64,000 nucleotides of DNA from Tubulanus polymorphus (lineage: Eukaryota; Nemertea; Palaeonemertea; Tubulaniformes; Tubulanidae): assembly GCF_964204645.1 (NCBI RefSeq), contig NC_134032.1, positions 10,348,275-10,412,274 of the forward strand, in the 5' to 3' direction. The notes under the pieces are model-generated. The model did no database searches. It had not been told where the DNA came from and was given only the letters and a program-made list of their open reading frames with translations. Position numbers and translations under genes: made by a program. Of this stretch, positions 52,601 through 63,938 are shown piece after piece; within the stretch, counting starts at the first letter, position 1; each line of letters starts with the position of its first letter.

Positions 52601-55600
52601 AAAATGCTGACAGTAGTTGTGTCGGCAAAAGTCACGCGACTTTGAATGAACGTGTCTGGGTGGGTGGTTACACAGGATCGTAGAGCAACGTAGATACACT
52701 GTGGAGACCGGTCATCCTTATTACCGAGATGATGTATTTTACCGAGATGAACCGAGATCAACCGAGATGAAATTAAATATAACATATTTATTTATTCCAT
52801 ATCGATTTTAACCATTGAAATCATATCATATCAGTAATAAATGCCTGCTGGGTTCATATTTTACATATTTTGTCGGATATTTTTGGAAAAATAACTTTTA
52901 ACTTTACCGAGATGAGATCGTTGATCAATCAAATTCAATGAAATTTTATTGCTAACCGAGTTTACGTTTTTGAAGTCAAAATTTTTTTAAATAAAAAAAT
53001 ATGTAAAATATGACTCTAGGAGGTATTTATTATTGATATAACATGATTTCAAGTGTTAAAATCGATAAGGAATAAATAAATATGTTATATTTAATTTCAT
53101 CTCGGTTGATCTCGGTTCATCTTGGTAAAATACATCATCTCGGTAATAAGGATGACCCGTGGAGACAGCCACACTGCCAGGACTGGGTGAATAAAACCTA
53201 AGATGGATTTGATACGTACCGAATACGATTCTCCATAAAGCAGGATGAGGTCGCGTGAATGGTCCTGAAAAACGGAATAAAACATACAGTAAGCTCTTTC
53301 TTTCCAGTTTGTAATACAATTTGACGCGAATATAAAAGAAAAAATCACCGTTTGGAAATGCTAAGACGCTGATGATCAAGAAGAAGAACGTCAGACAACA
53401 CAAACCGCTGAGATAGTTCGATTCCTTCGATGCGGCGTCATCTCTGAGGAGGGTAAAAAGTAGAATTATAAACACACCTCTGGGGTCGGGACCCACACAG
53501 ACACATGGCGACTACTTATTAAATCCAGCCTAAAAAAATCCATCCCATTCCCTACTGTAGTGGTACTAACTACCGACCGGTCCTCCTTACCGAGTCCGAG
53601 ATGACGCAATTTACCGAGATGAACCGAGATGAAATGAAAATAATATGTCAAAGTCGAAACTTGGTGAAGCGCACAGCCAGTCTTAAGTTTTAATGAATAA
53701 ATAGAGGCGAGTGCCCTTTCGGCAACTTATATAGAATTCTACATTGTAAAAAAATAGGTTTTGCGGGGGCACCTGTGTTCGACGAGGTCCGTGGCCAAAG
53801 AAAATCACCCAAAATGTCGAAGATCTATTCGAGCGAAGATTCGCCGTGATCAAATACATGTATAGAAAAGGAATTCATTTTTGCGAAAAAAACATGCTTT
53901 GGGAGTGTTGATTACAAATTGAAAGCCTTGTTTGTTTTACGACAATAAATCTTCCTGTATCGTCAGATATGTTCTACGAACGGCTTTAACAGTTTTATAT
54001 GTTTTACACAAGAAATTTGAAGATTAAAAAAGAAAAAAATCATTTTTTGCGAAAAACAACGTGGGAGTTTGGGAATGTTGATTACGTATTGAGAGCCTAT
54101 GGTTTTATCGATTATACGAAAATAAATTTTTCTGTAGTTTAAAAATGTCAGATTTCTACATTAAATCTCATGGCTTCAATAGTTTTATATGTTTTACACT
54201 AAAGATTTGTTCCTAAGTATTACAACGGGTTGCATGGGTACGGAATTAATGGAACAACGGTATTTTGAATACGGTACGGATTATAGCGAATTTTACTTGA
54301 AACGGAAAAGGGGAATAACGTTTGAAAAACGGGAGTAAAAAACACATAAAGATACGATATGTTAAAAAACGCACGGCATTTTACTCCCAGGGATTGGCAA
54401 AATTCTGAGTTAATTATTCAGTACTTGTGTGGAGCGGGACGGTCAATTTGTAGCACGCGGACCGCGCGCGCGTTATTCTCCGGGACTCGACCCTTAGTGA
54501 TGCTGTGAAACCGGCGCTCTTGTTATTCTAAAAAAATTCGACCCGTTGCTAAGGGACTGTGCTTTTTGTGGGATTTGAATCCAGTCTTCCAATCGGTTTC
54601 TACGGAGAAATACGAACTAAAAATGACATTTCTTTGACAATATTTCGTGAATATTCTTTGTAAATATTCTGAAAATTACACAAAATCGTTTTGTTATCCT
54701 TCATTCACGTATTTAAACTACCCGCACGACGCGGCCCGCAAGTTTCGACGAAAGTCCGTCCATGACCGTCATTTTCGTCGCCGCGATTTAGCCAATGCCC
54801 ATGTGTCCCGGATGTAAACTACACTTTTTGAGAAGGACGGTATTAGCGGAGCTGGCATCAGACCACAATTAGGTTAGTAGCTCGAAGATGCGTAGGGCCG
54901 GACCCCAAAAATAGTACCTAGAGTGAAGAAGAGGTCCCCTATAAATGTTGCCATAATTTCTGCAAATGGGATAGGTAACGAATTTCGGTTATATGTATGA
55001 AATCCATTGATCCTGAGAGACAGCTTGATGATGAAATAAGGGATTCCCTGGACTTTTTTTGCTTGGAGTAAGGGTACCAAACACGGTGGGGGATTCCCTT
55101 AGATATTTGGCTCGGATGTACTGGCATACCTGTACTGGGATACCCCTCCTTTCTAAAGGTTTGATTATTTCAAAAGTTAGGTTGGGTATGTGGGGCGAAA
55201 ACCACTTCAATGCGTAGCTAAGATGCTGGCCTATGAGCCATAAGCAGGATTTCCCCTGAATTTACGCGCTTATATATGAACTAAACTCTCGAATTTCTTG
55301 TTTTTACTATAGGATATAGAAGATTTTGGAATAGTGGTCTGAGCTGAGCTCAGATGGTTTTCACCCCACATACCCAACCTAACTTTTGAAATAATCAAAC
55401 CTTTAGAAAGGAGGGGTATCCCAGTACAGGTATGCCAGTACATCCGAGCCAAATATCTAAGGGAATCCCCCACCGTGTTTGGTACCCTTACTCCAAGCAA
55501 AAAAAGTCCAGGGAATCCCTTATTTCATCATCAAGCTGTCTCTCAGGATCAATGGATTTCATACATATAACCGAAATTCGTTACCTATCCCATTTGCAGA

Positions 55601-56094
55601 AATTATGGCAACATTTATAGGGGACCTCTTCTTCACTCTAGGTACTATTTTTGGGGTCCGGCCCTACGCATCTTCGAGCTACTAACCTAATTGTGGTCTG
55701 GACGGTATGGAGAAATATAGAAAATTTTAATTTGCCTCATACGCGCGATTAACTTAAGGAGCTTCCAGCTCGCGCCTTCGGCGCTGGCTGTGCGCTTATA
55801 ACTTATTTATTTACTCCTTATCGATGTAAACACTTGAAATCAAATTATATCAGTAATAGATACCTGCTGGAGTGGAGTCGGATATTTTTGGGCCAAAAAA
55901 TGAGCGCAGTTTTCTCACCTGACAAACGCGGTATAAACTAATCCCAGCACAGATACAGTGAGTAGAGTTAAAGTGTGAGGTTTGTAGAAGAATTCCAGAG
56001 AGATGTCATCAACTGGCGACTCGTTAATCTCAGAGAAATGCAATTTATCCTCGGAAATACTGTTAGAATTGCGAACCCGGCGAGTGGACGCCAT
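43098..56094 (-). CDS. PTDSS1: Phosphatidylserine synthase 1 (12 exons, complete)
   Basis: Twelve exons with GT-AG borders (56094-55919, 53443-53349, 53264-53220, 50692-50574, 50167-50012, 49472-49321, 48852-48793, 48702-48621, 47662-47550, 47030-46965, 46078-45916, 43355-43098) sum to 1,485 bp: 494 aa plus stop. Human PTDSS1 has about 473. The enzyme is an ER (MAM) membrane protein that exchanges the head group of phosphatidylcholine for L-serine to make phosphatidylserine. [44 protein letters not shown] and [13 protein letters not shown] identify the family and favour PTDSS1 over PTDSS2. The eight residues reported essential in hamster PSS1 appear conserved with offset 3: H169, E194, E197, N206, E209, D213, D218, N223. 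Arg95, linked to product inhibition, is kept. The hydrophobic segments fit a multi-pass protein. The C-terminal ~80 residues are polar, Lys-rich and divergent. The start at 56094 gives the expected N-terminus; an ATG at 56101 is out of frame. Introns hold several transposons. Confidence 0.96.
43610..43688. repeat. (ACGC)n / (AC)n microsatellite
   Basis: About 14 cgca units followed by (ac)n, in PTDSS1 intron 11. It explains the Cys/Val/Arg-rich reverse ORF here. Confidence 0.9.
44276..44505 (+). repeat. Two direct copies of a 126-bp unit
   Basis: Copy 1 starts at 44276 and copy 2 at 44402. Both begin gcccagtttcacaaaaaagt and contain gccattggttact and aatgaggacaacaattcaaa. Two small indels and a few substitutions separate them. 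PTDSS1 intron 11. Confidence 0.8.
44506..44615 (+). mobile_element. Penelope-like end fragment
   Basis: Tcatcaggtggatggctg, a hairpin ggctgttagtcaacagcc and then gaaacgttgtgg resembles the hammerhead-like ends of Penelope-like retroelements. It is followed by tctaagtgtgggatttcttc, the inverse of sequence at 44,385-44,400. Confidence 0.35.
45044..45174. mobile_element. 131-bp palindromic MITE, AGGGGCCAGTTGCTCAAAG ends
   Basis: The left end aggggccagttgctcaaagg and the inverse of the right end, aggggtcagttgttcaaaag, match. The interior holds gttgatagttgacatagtga and a partial inverse. PTDSS1 intron 11. Confidence 0.65.
45398..45485. mobile_element. Tc1/mariner-pogo-like end or short hairpin element
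   Basis: CAGTCAACCCCCGATATACT after TA resembles pogo/Tigger terminal repeats. The inverse gtagtatatcgggggg follows 50 bp later, giving a short foldback with gcagtat arms. A similar end (cacagtagaaccagcttaat) is near 49,651. Confidence 0.4.
45916..46078 (-). CDS. PTDSS1: PTDSS1 exon 11
   Basis: Encodes [14 protein letters not shown] and the last membrane segment ([15 protein letters not shown]). Acceptor tttcag, donor gtaagt, phase 0. Confidence 0.93.
46145..46284. mobile_element. Palindromic MITE, GGGGCCRGTTGCAYAGTC family
   Basis: Begins ggggccaggtgcacagtctt and ends gactatgcaactggcccc. The core has cttaagactggtcttaagtt and gttagattggctatagaact. It lies in PTDSS1 intron 10. Confidence 0.75.
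46965..47030 (-). CDS. PTDSS1: PTDSS1 exon 10
   Basis: Encodes [20 protein letters not shown], which differs little from the vertebrate sequence. Acceptor ttgtag, donor gtaagt. Confidence 0.95.
47146..47485. repeat. Inverted-repeat element with a tandemly duplicated half
   Basis: Gtctacacgccagtgcggtg at 47,153 is inverted as caccgcactgcagtgtagac at about 47,276 and again at about 47,410. The 134-bp segment containing agttctttgactattcaaat is present twice in tandem. PTDSS1 intron 9. Confidence 0.6.
47550..47662 (-). CDS. PTDSS1: PTDSS1 exon 9
   Basis: Encodes [16 protein letters not shown] and the membrane segment [17 protein letters not shown]. Acceptor ttacag, donor gtaaga. Confidence 0.93.
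47831..48256. mobile_element. 426-bp TIR element with 9-bp target duplication
   Basis: AGGCTTCTT at 47822-47830 is repeated at 48257-48265. The ends are inverted: the left has aaattgtcccccggacaatt gccccc, the right agggggcaattgtccggggg. The terminal repeats are about 36 bp with a few mismatches and contain an inner gacaattg duplication. The interior is A/T-rich with no ORF. A 9-bp duplication fits the Mutator-like (MULE) group. PTDSS1 intron 8. Confidence 0.75.
48621..48702 (-). CDS. PTDSS1: PTDSS1 exon 8
   Basis: Encodes [12 protein letters not shown] and the membrane segment [11 protein letters not shown]. It completes the FTPASW motif across the splice. Acceptor ttctag, donor gtatct. Confidence 0.92.
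48793..48852 (-). CDS. PTDSS1: PTDSS1 exon 7 (60 bp)
   Basis: Encodes [19 protein letters not shown], a conserved loop. Acceptor tttcag, donor gtatgt. Confidence 0.93.
48938..49180. repeat. Purine-rich tract with (GGGA)n
   Basis: Six to eight ggga units near 48,945-48,972 are followed by about 200 bp of A/G-rich sequence. PTDSS1 intron 6. Confidence 0.6.
49321..49472 (-). CDS. PTDSS1: PTDSS1 exon 6 (catalytic region)
   Basis: Encodes [20 protein letters not shown] and [10 protein letters not shown], with Asn206, Glu209, Asp213, Asp218 and Asn223. Acceptor ttgtag, donor gtacgt. Confidence 0.95.
50012..50167 (-). CDS. PTDSS1: PTDSS1 exon 5 (catalytic region)
   Basis: Encodes [16 protein letters not shown] and [12 protein letters not shown], with His169, Glu194 and Glu197 at positions reported essential in PSS1. 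52 codons, phase 0 at both ends. Confidence 0.95.
50255..50450 (+). repeat. Repeat family A, tandem copies
   Basis: Three units of ggtggatcctcacttgc and ttgatatcctactgcacact, about 75-80 bp apart. The same family is inverted at 3,690-3,950. PTDSS1 intron 4. Confidence 0.7.
50574..50692 (-). CDS. PTDSS1: PTDSS1 exon 4
   Basis: Encodes [15 protein letters not shown], a membrane segment, then the loop ending GPKEFE. Acceptor tttcag, donor gtaatc, phase 0. Confidence 0.92.
52709..53158. mobile_element. 450-bp inverted-repeat element with 8-bp target duplication
   Basis: GTGGAGAC at 52701-52708 is repeated at 53159-53166. The ends pair over about 90 bp: ggtcatccttattaccgaga and gatgtattttaccgagatga are inverted at the right end, which closes ggtaataaggatgac. 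The interior is A/T-rich, without ORF. An 8-bp duplication fits the hAT superfamily. Related pieces are at 53,570-53,650 and 55,795-55,870. It sits 54 bp from PTDSS1 exon 3, in intron 3. Confidence 0.8.
53220..53264 (-). CDS. PTDSS1: PTDSS1 exon 3 (45 bp)
   Basis: Encodes [14 protein letters not shown] with Arg95, the residue linked to product inhibition. Acceptor tttcag, donor gtacgt. Confidence 0.93.
53349..53443 (-). CDS. PTDSS1: PTDSS1 exon 2
   Basis: Encodes [11 protein letters not shown] and the near-invariant [13 protein letters not shown]. Acceptor cctcag, donor gtgatt. An 84-bp intron separates it from exon 3, and reading through it makes a longer but false ORF. Confidence 0.93.
54844..55699. 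mobile_element. Foldback element: 345-bp arms differing at one base
   Basis: Arm 1 (54860-55204) and arm 2 (55355-55699) are inverted copies of equal length with a single mismatch near their inner ends, around a 150-bp spacer. GGACGGTAT occurs at 54835-54843 and 55700-55708 and may be a 9-bp target duplication. If so, 15 unpaired bases lie outside arm 1. The arms contain no recognised gene, and the mirrored 62-, 68- and 73-codon ORFs only reflect the duplication. It lies in PTDSS1 intron 1. Confidence 0.85.
55919..56094 (-). CDS. PTDSS1: PTDSS1 exon 1 (coding part)
   Basis: Encodes [20 protein letters not shown], the family motif [15 protein letters not shown] and the first membrane segment ([11 protein letters not shown]). 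Donor CAG|gtgaga, phase 2. Confidence 0.93.
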
Positions 56095-60766: not shown

Positions 60767-61759
60767 TCATCGAAACAGTCTTTTGAGATTCTGTCTGAAT
60801 TTTAAATTTATAGAAAGGTAGACGACGAAATTCAACGCCGAATCGAGAACCACCAGAAACAGACCGGCCTTTCTGGCGTACTGTTTGAAATCGTCTGATT
60901 TGAACGCGAAACCCGCCGCACTCGCGACTCGATCCACGCAAGCTGGCGTTTCGCATATTGTAAAAATCAGTAGTATTGCCATCACCATTTTATCGGCTTG
61001 TCGGTCGCTACGGCTGGACTTCGGCGAGGACACGGCCGCCAAAACTACCGAACGCCGCGAACGAGCGATATGGATAGAATTGAGCAGGCCTAGGTTCGTA
61101 GCGTAAAGAACGACCATCGGAAAACCGACCAAGAATCCGAAATAGACGATCATATCAAAGCGAGCGTAAGATGCTGGTTTAGGTTTTACAATATACGGCG
61201 CCACTAAATCGAAGGAGCAGCGGTGAACGCTTTTATATTCAAGACCGGACAGCCAGTATCGTGGAACGTGACAAACGATGGAAATTAAACACGTGGAAAC
61301 GACGTTGATTTTGCAACATTTCCACGTCAGCACTCGCCTGGACCAGAGAGGGAATCTTATATTCAGGAAGCGATTCACGGAAATATAGGCGGTTATCCAG
61401 TTTCTGATTTGTTGCGTGATGAAATACAGAACGACAGTAGAGTAGGCCAGTTTGGCGTCGATATCGTTGTCTTTGTACCTGAAAACCAGATTCCCGAATC
61501 GTATCCTGTACCGGACGTGTCTGACGAAAAAGTACACAAGACAAACAGCCAGAAACGACATGTCGCAACACGCCAAAACCTTCAAGATTCTAATCGATAC
61601 CACCGCTTGTCGTTCGAGGCCGAACGCGAATAAACTGAGCACGTTACCAACTATGCCGAAAACGCAAATGGCCCCAATTCCGTATACGTACAAGTTATGA
61701 ACGAACACGTATTTCAATCTCACGGGTGGACAGTCCATATACCCAGATACGTTCACCAT
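60767..61759 (-). CDS. Class A (rhodopsin-like) GPCR, peptide-receptor type, orphan
   Basis: A 330-residue single-exon receptor with seven hydrophobic segments at about 24-47, 56-79, 105-130, 150-168, 202-226, 256-276 and 298-316. Class A landmarks: GIVGNV in TM1 (N39), LACCD in TM2 (D66), VNR at 128-130 in place of DRY, ICETP in TM6 (P272) and NFVVY (310-314) for NPxxY, followed by a basic helix-8-like end (KFRQNLKRLFR). N3 (NVS) is a possible glycosylation site. Cys181 lies in loop 2 but no Cys is seen at the top of TM3, so the usual disulfide may be absent. The overall pattern is closest to invertebrate FMRFamide/peptide-type receptors; the ligand is unknown. It is head to head with the receptor at 62,904, 1.1 kb apart. 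Confidence 0.9.
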   Translation of the reverse strand: MVNVSGYMDCPPVRLKYVFVHNLYVYGIGAICVFGIVGNVLSLFAFGLERQAVVSIRILKVLACCDMSFLAVCLVYFFVRHVRYRIRFGNLVFRYKDNDIDAKLAYSTVVLYFITQQIRNWITAYISVNRFLNIRFPLWSRRVLTWKCCKINVVSTCLISIVCHVPRYWLSGLEYKSVHRCSFDLVAPYIVKPKPASYARFDMIVYFGFLVGFPMVVLYATNLGLLNSIHIARSRRSVVLAAVSSPKSSRSDRQADKMVMAILLIFTICETPACVDRVASAAGFAFKSDDFKQYARKAGLFLVVLDSALNFVVYLSINLKFRQNLKRLFR

Positions 61760-62239: not shown

Positions 62240-62903
62240 GTTTTAAGGGCCAAATATATTGACAAAAGATTTTATGTGTATCCAAAACCAGTATAAATTC
62301 TCCTCGCTCTTGCATGCAGAAGAGAAACGTGTATTATTTTTTCTATTTTTGTCACTCATATTGTCAAAGACCTTCAGTTTTTCTTGTTGCTATGTACGGG
62401 TGGTGCGACATCCGGGGATATGAAAATTTGAATTTATTCAGAAAGTCTTTGTTCTTTATTCTGTAAAATTGTGATGAAAGTGACCAAAATATTCACATGA
62501 TTTACAAGTATTGGCGGATTTAGGACGGTATCTCTTGGTGTGAAACGTAGGATGAATAACTGTTGGGGGAAAACGGAATCTTGCAAACTAACTAAGCTTA
62601 AGACTCTAGTAGTATAAATGATGCGTGTGTTTATGTACATCACTAAAATCTTTGTCGTTTTCTAAAAGTTTAATTTTCTACTAATATTTGTAAATACTTC
62701 ATATAGTTTTTCTTCATGTACGATAGAAATGGTTGGAGTGTAAATAGATAATTCGTACTATTTCGCAAAGGAAAACTGACAGGATTATTAATAGTTTTAT
62801 GTATTCTGATGCAAGTAGTCCATCATTTCGTTAACGACAGCCATCCACGACATTATGCCCTCATATATATCTATGGATTGAAGGCCTAATAGATGGGAGT
62901 AAA

Positions 62904-63938
62904 ATGAACTCCACCGTGACGGATCGCGCGAACCGATTTGGCGGTTTAGCCTATGCTCGTCCGGCTCGCGAGTTTTTCTACACATATCTGTTTACGCCGA
63001 TTCTTTTCGGCGGAACTTTCGGGAACTTTTTCGTAGTCGCGGTGTTCATTAAGCAAAACGAGTGGAACAAACCCGGTGTCATCTATATGTTCTGTTTAGC
63101 TATAACAGACGGCTTATATTTGATGGCGTCCGGTCTTCCAGTTTGGCTTATATACGGTCTTCTGTCGATGTCTGGAGGCAGATATAGTATCGATGTTACT
63201 ATCCTCAGCCAAGCAAGTTGCAAAACATTAGGCATCGTACTTTTTTGGAGTTTAGGCGCGTCAGCGTTCATCACGATAACCATGACATTCGAACGCTTTT
63301 GCGCTATTCAATACCCGCTGCAAACATTGCGTGTAACGCAGAAGATGCGGGTCGTGTTTTTGTCGTGCGCCGGTTTGCTTTTCGCCTTACTCGAAGTCAG
63401 GCAAGCTTTCATATTTGAAGTAGCTCCCGCAACCAGCGGGAACCCTCATAAACTCCTCTGCACTGAAAACCGCTCGATTGATGATGAAATCTTGTTCTCA
63501 ATTCGCTATCTCTTATTAATTATAGGTTACTACGTTTTACCGTCGGTCCTACTTTTAGTGATAAACGCTCTGATATGTTTAGCTTTATTCCGAGCGCGTT
63601 GGTCGTCGCCATCTGACAACCGCGCATCTCTGAGCACCGGCGGCAAGCGACACGAAATATCTATCAGTATAACGCTGATGACTGTGGCTACGATGTTTAT
63701 CCTGTGCAATTTACCCATGATTTCTGGACTTTTCTACGGTTATTACGTGGTAAAAAACCCGCATTTGACAAGTCGTCGGGACAAAGCGAATCTTGGTGAA
63801 TTGTATTGGCTTTGTTCTAGCATACCATTCGTAAACAACGCCACAAACTTCCCTCTTTACGTCATCAGATTGTCCTATTTTCGCAGGCATTTGTGTGAAA
63901 TGTTCTGTTGTTTATGCCGCCGTTCAAAAAGAAAATGA
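62904..63938 (+). CDS. Class A (rhodopsin-like) GPCR, peptide-receptor type, orphan
   Basis: A 344-residue single-exon receptor. Hydrophobic segments are at about 25-49, 59-84, 104-130, 147-170, 198-229, 252-277 and 299-322. Landmarks: GNFFVV in TM1 (N41), LAITD in TM2 (D69), Cys106 at the top of TM3 paired with Cys186 in loop 2, ERF at 130-132 for DRY, NLP in TM6 (P271) and NFPLY (315-319) for NPxxY. The N-terminus has a glycosylation site at N2 (NST). The C-tail CEMFCCLCRRSKRK has cysteines at 331, 335, 336 and 338, probable palmitoylation sites, then a basic end. It is shorter in its tail than most amine receptors and looks like an invertebrate peptide or orphan receptor. It is only distantly similar to the neighbour at 60,767, so not a recent tandem copy. 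Confidence 0.92.
   Translation: MNSTVTDRANRFGGLAYARPAREFFYTYLFTPILFGGTFGNFFVVAVFIKQNEWNKPGVIYMFCLAITDGLYLMASGLPVWLIYGLLSMSGGRYSIDVTILSQASCKTLGIVLFWSLGASAFITITMTFERFCAIQYPLQTLRVTQKMRVVFLSCAGLLFALLEVRQAFIFEVAPATSGNPHKLLCTENRSIDDEILFSIRYLLLIIGYYVLPSVLLLVINALICLALFRARWSSPSDNRASLSTGGKRHEISISITLMTVATMFILCNLPMISGLFYGYYVVKNPHLTSRRDKANLGELYWLCSSIPFVNNATNFPLYVIRLSYFRRHLCEMFCCLCRRSKRK

Follow-up and report, generated by a model that had tools for sequence, protein, structure and literature searches.

The locus raises the question of how a near-perfect inverted repeat came to lie within a gene, and whether it arrived as one element or was built in place. In the window, by which we mean the whole stretch of 64,000 nucleotides analysed, two arms of 345 nt each were compared directly: 54860–55204 (plus strand; part of the copy called A below) and 55355–55699 (minus strand; part of copy B). 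The identity of 344/345 given in a preliminary description was reproduced by recomputation, the sole mismatch being C at 55196 against T at 55363. With 54859 and 55700 added, the arms lengthen to 346 nt, and the spacer is 150 nt. The 9-mer GGACGGTAT, described earlier as a flanking direct repeat, was found on both sides of the insert at 54835–54843 and 55700–55708; since G55700 could belong to either the repeat or the duplication, the duplicated stretch measures 8 or 9 bp. By arithmetic, a third occurrence at 62523 could be due to chance, given a 9-mer and 64 kb of sequence.

The gene is PTDSS1-like and lies on the minus strand, with Pfam PSS exons at C8:10395823-10398438. By tblastn with a vertebrate PTDSS1 query, its N-terminal coding exon was placed at 55918–56070 and the next at 53218–53466. 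Because these exons enclose the insert, it sits in the intron that follows the first coding exon, in agreement with the intronic position first proposed. Elsewhere in the window, single-exon frames at 60767–61759 (minus strand; 330 amino acids) and 62904–63938 (plus strand; 344 amino acids) resemble rhodopsin-type receptors by eye.

The insert breaks a dispersed host repeat at 54600–55802 (plus strand), the left limit of which lies at or beyond 54600, the start of the query. All 20 copies of this repeat that were read are free of any insert at the equivalent place; 14 were picked since both flank searches already adjoined, and the other six (L052, L056, L079–L082), for which this did not hold, were empty as well. 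The 9-mer occurs once in the empty copies, intact in 19/20, with GGACGGTTT in its stead in L052; in L056, the right flank is lost from 2 bp beyond the insertion point onwards. As the empty copies hold the 9-mer once, the duplication around B is real. The preliminary description had made much depend on whether an empty allele would reveal a flanking duplication, and these paralogous empty sites, with their single 9-mer, favour insertion. L051 and L052 carry an extra tandem 8-bp GGAGAAAT immediately to the right of the point where the window has its insert; it may be a footprint.

The dispersed 493-bp repeat and its coding relatives

The insert was used as query against the genome to which the window belongs (77 contigs, 267.8 Mb). 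Among the best 40 of 373 candidates, the window included, the whole 856-bp insert was found only at the window locus, and the 39 others matched only a 493-bp unit spanning 54854 to about 55346. Arm 1 and most of the loop (54854–55346) together make up a complete dispersed repeat, which was found by flank comparison to be sharply bounded, GGCATC...GAGCTC on the plus strand; 493 bp is the length of most complete units among the ends listed. The arm sequence, the copy number of which the preliminary description had left to such a search, is multi-copy: the repeat has 135 left ends and 189 right ends across the genome. A tandem satellite was considered and dropped, TRF detecting no array of the unit in L002, L008 or the window.

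As judged from sequence, the family is KolobokP, a kind already described, and the repeat represents its "LTDR" in solo form. Read in KolobokP orientation, this LTDR is GAGCTCAGACCAC...GTGGTCTGATGCC, carries an internal TIR (GAGCTCAGACCACTATT against the reverse complement of GGCATCAGACCACAATT, 13/17 positions matching) and ends with GA..CC. The unit is also present at both ends of a 924-bp core, in direct orientation as terminal repeats, for instance in L014, L025 and L033. Sixteen end-to-end matches to the core were found in the genome, and at several loci the units lie 925 bp apart, tip to tip. The core has no long ORF and is non-coding as far as the ORF lists show. Outer 4-bp TSDs match in six monomers (L014, L019, L025, L033, L075, L078), and matching TSDs are absent in two trimers (L021, L077).

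Among solo copies, an exact 4-bp TSD was observed in 31/38, copy A included, and was absent in seven (L003, L011, L015, L020, L022, L028, L032). For this count, 4 of 66 aligned copies were dropped for missing ends, B and L018 among them, and L075 was left out, being the 3′ end of a composite; L017 and L062, which share flanks, may be one insertion. The sample consists of the 40 best scorers to the window sequence out of 373 and a further 20 loci drawn from 100 listed ends per side, exact matches first, and in both parts it leans to young, A-like copies. Five of the TSD-less solos (L011, L015, L020, L028, L032) carry 3–6 bp resembling the core ends (GTCA left, TGAC right), perhaps through imprecise excision or as retained spacer. 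A second, older inverted pair was noticed at L003 (C2:18671055-18672240), where an LTDR stands head to head with a reversed relative of about 70% identity.

A coding element of the exact 493-bp family was not found in the genome, the nearest being a relative at C4:16180162-16184827 (L038) with an LTDR 79% identical and core ends about 70–73% identical. This relative keeps both core-repeat junctions; between them, a frame of 740 aa contains a Mutator-like transposase domain (PF20700, E=8.5e-61), and the opposite strand encodes a 132-aa His-Me nuclease (PF05551, E=1.6e-13; I-PpoI match, E=5.4e-6); its second LTDR is truncated. A PDB search with the relative's transposase gave no match. A damaged second copy lies on C1. 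Further matches to the KolobokP transposase, either broken or more distant, were seen at C12:8751419-9732509 and at C6:17253308-17255845, some beside nuclease fragments.

Anatomy of the insert and rival explanations

Very probably, the inverted repeat consists of two solo LTDRs, one nested within the other in opposite orientation, from a KolobokP DNA transposon family that is young and non-autonomous. From left to right, the order is GGACGGTAT, TAGCG, GAGCT, copy A reversed, AGCT, CAGA, the point of a 133-bp deletion, the remainder of B, and GGACGGTAT. The left copy of the 9-bp duplication (54835–54843), single in the empty paralogues, is followed on the plus strand by TAGCG (54844–54848), which lies outside the repeat. 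Next comes GAGCT (54849–54853, plus strand), the first 5 bp of B in KolobokP orientation, as recognized from the canonical terminus GAGCTC; within this tip, AGCT (54850–54853) is the left TSD of copy A. Copy A itself (54854–55346, minus strand) was defined by flank comparison and family alignment as a complete 493-bp solo LTDR. The final base of its canonical end is G where C is expected; alternatively, the TSD is GAGCT and the terminal C is missing. The rest of B (55347–55699, plus strand) consists of AGCT, the right TSD of A, then CAGA, the 133-bp deletion and the remainder up to GTGGTCT, so that B is without its terminal GATGCC or ATGCC (5–6 bp missing). The right copy of the duplication (55700–55708), placed from the empty paralogues, may have its first G from B.

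This anatomy accounts for the 15 unpaired bases at 54844–54858, which had seemed odd for a terminal-inverted-repeat transposon: they are TAGCG, GAGCT and GGCAT, the last being terminal bases of A that are absent from B. Likewise, the loop of 150 nt is made up of the 142 bp of A that follow arm 1 and of AGCTCAGA.

B was the earlier insertion because the TSD of A sits in its tip. In a first step, B entered the dispersed repeat in the PTDSS1 intron with the 8–9-bp duplication and five extra bases. In a second step, as the anatomy shows, A landed in B's GAGCTC tip in the opposite direction, with the 4-bp TSD AGCT, giving a near-palindrome; its transposase may have been supplied in trans from a coding relative. 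In a third step, of putative timing and cause, 133 bp beside the centre were lost from B, giving the 150-nt spacer. Since the deletion junction occurs once in the whole genome, the loss probably arose at this locus, and one-sided central deletion resolving a long perfect palindrome is its likely cause.

A very unlikely alternative is that a single copy inserted, after which template switching or fold-back repair copied part of it in reverse with 8–9 bp of flank. Such an event would give B's truncated ends, its deletion and the short duplication at once, but B keeps the family tip GAGCTCAGA beyond its deletion, and the AGCT flanking A lies inside the B tip, the empty host site having no AGCT there.

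The near-identity of the arms had been taken as a sign of very recent formation or ongoing gene conversion. Recency stands, whereas conversion is unneeded for a family that is nearly uniform: among the 1,891 pairs that the other copies form, 119 are separated by one substitution or none, and 7/62 other copies have no substitution relative to A over the arm, counts that ignore indels and come from a sample leaning to A-like copies (two of the seven, L007 and L033, differ from A by a 1-bp indel; L033 holds the same copy as L008). Because those pairs differ as little as A and B, youth explains the arm identity. The identity itself is what conversion would maintain, but no private variants shared by the arms and absent from all other copies were seen, and we regard this explanation as highly improbable. 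The single difference of B from A is present in none of the 62 other copies.

That one 856-bp foldback or long-TIR transposon moved as a unit, with a 9-bp TSD of Mutator-like length, is scarcely credible. The inverted arms and the true 8–9-bp duplication around the whole insert would fit, but the insert itself is single in the search described above, the tail-to-tail central junction is, like the deletion junction, found once in the genome, and arm plus loop form a unit that has a 4-bp TSD of its own at this and other loci. A Mutator element with 9-bp TSD, suggested by the Pfam name and the 9-bp duplication, was rejected on the 4-bp TSD of the family. Inverted repeats are a known assembly hazard, but an artefact has a negligible probability, the joints being those of transposition as judged by TSD, termini and empty sites, and the arms not being symmetric copies.

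Within the nested pair of LTDRs, copy B is anomalous: its 8–9-bp duplication in a family with 4-bp TSDs, the 5–6 bp missing and the five foreign bases do not fit a standard KolobokP insertion. TAGCG arrived with the insert, as the empty host-repeat sites are without it, and may perhaps be flank carried over from the donor site of B. An exact genome search for TAGCG plus B as donor gave no match; the nearest candidate, C7:13729032, has one mismatch, chance level by estimate. Two proposals would each explain part of the anomalies: a transposase may have inserted a circular intermediate by a junction that had shifted, circles being a topic of PMC9587614, or a staggered break may have captured a fragment of B.

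Insertion sites of the family

Three of 36 clean insertion sites, namely the window (A), L009 and L019, lie in or against another LTDR. L009 holds two LTDRs with CGTT before, between and after, one of which counts here, and in the L019 composite, ACAA lies in the terminal 15 bp of an LTDR. About 0.01 such self-hits are expected if LTDR DNA makes up about 0.03% of the genome (by arithmetic, about 162 copies × 493 bp), but the window was chosen for the inverted repeat, L009 lies in a hotspot and the number is small. A preference of KolobokP for its own tips is put forward as an idea. Outside the hotspot, the TSDs of 27 sites lean to A(17)G(13)[C/A](20)[A/T](22), which AGCT in the LTDR tip fits. 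A TCAGA target motif was also considered, and its frequency (6/27 sites versus 5/53 flank stretches) was not convincing.

The hotspot is one other dispersed repeat, in which 16/51 LTDR loci lie (L002, L007, L009, L011, L016, L020, L021, L022, L026, L032, L033, L067, L070, L072, L075, L077), just one side being placed in some of them. Its breaks fall within about 27 bp, at reference coordinates 877–903 of 1,796 (ATTACGTTCGTCTCAGAGAGAAAAC), and the TSDs vary among loci; L020 is an exception in that its right side joins at 1054.

Predicted RNA hairpin and comparison with known systems

The preliminary description had held that a transcript could form a 345-bp RNA stem, and at the level of folding this was borne out: as RNA, the minus strand gave −720 kcal/mol against −231 ± 7 for 20 shuffles, far beyond chance. 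If the intron is transcribed, the modelled hairpin would certainly form, and the candidate hairpin matches well over a hundred KolobokP ends. In maize, Mu killer is an inverted duplication of transposon sequence for which read-through from a flanking gene is proposed to give hairpin RNA, according to the account in PMC3440606. By analogy, the nested pair could be a natural locus of this kind, in which PTDSS1 read-through would yield a 345-bp hairpin silencing KolobokP via small RNAs; we consider this unlikely, and a role in RNA editing would likewise be putative. The tail-to-tail junction of the pair is the only one of its kind in the genome, and among 200 listed of the 324 ends, no other opposite-strand neighbours lie within 2.5 kb of each other. 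Both loci have an inverted duplication of transposon sequence, whereas Mu killer, in a plant, contains transposase sequence and the present locus, known from DNA, contains the non-coding terminal repeat only. If transcribed, it would offer one defined hairpin locus for hairpin-triggered silencing of an animal DNA transposon. In itself, a puzzling inverted repeat becomes a readable record of two-step transposition, a well-explained and mostly ordinary transposon nest, and the KolobokP families gain one that was recently active and has empty sites.

The family resembles TRIM LTR retrotransposons in its short direct terminal repeats, non-coding core, solos, multimers and short TSD. In contrast to these, its relative has a DDE-type transposase and a nuclease, and the repeat has internal TIRs with no TG start or CA end; an LTR or TRIM origin was dropped once the relative proved to encode these two proteins.

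KolobokP, as set out by Kojima and Bao (2022; PMC9587614), has the plan LTDR-INT-LTDR, with solo LTDRs and multimers, and the same plan is present here with long direct repeats and a 924-bp core, together with solos and the trimers L021 and L077. Its LTDR classes are given as about 450 or about 660 bp, lengths of 473 and 480 bp being named within the former (PMC9587614), to which the 493-bp LTDR corresponds. The LTDRs described there have their own TIRs of 11–18 bp, ends 5′-RR and YY-3′, and TSDs of 3–5 bp; the present ones have imperfect TIRs of their own, GA..CC ends and 4-bp TSDs, copy B excepted (8–9 bp). A DDE transposase on the direct strand and a His-Me nuclease on the complementary strand are also described (PMC9587614), and a transposase with an opposite-strand nuclease is found here in the 79%-identical relative. 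Of the C/DxxH signature and CCHC zinc finger reported for the transposase (PMC9587614), a pattern search of the relative gave one DTVH, of uncertain place relative to the catalytic residues, and no CCHC. In the main text of PMC9587614, terms for nesting or for inverted, opposite or head-to-head orientation are absent. What sets the window apart from KolobokP so described is two solo LTDRs nested in opposite orientation, one of them with an 8–9-bp duplication.
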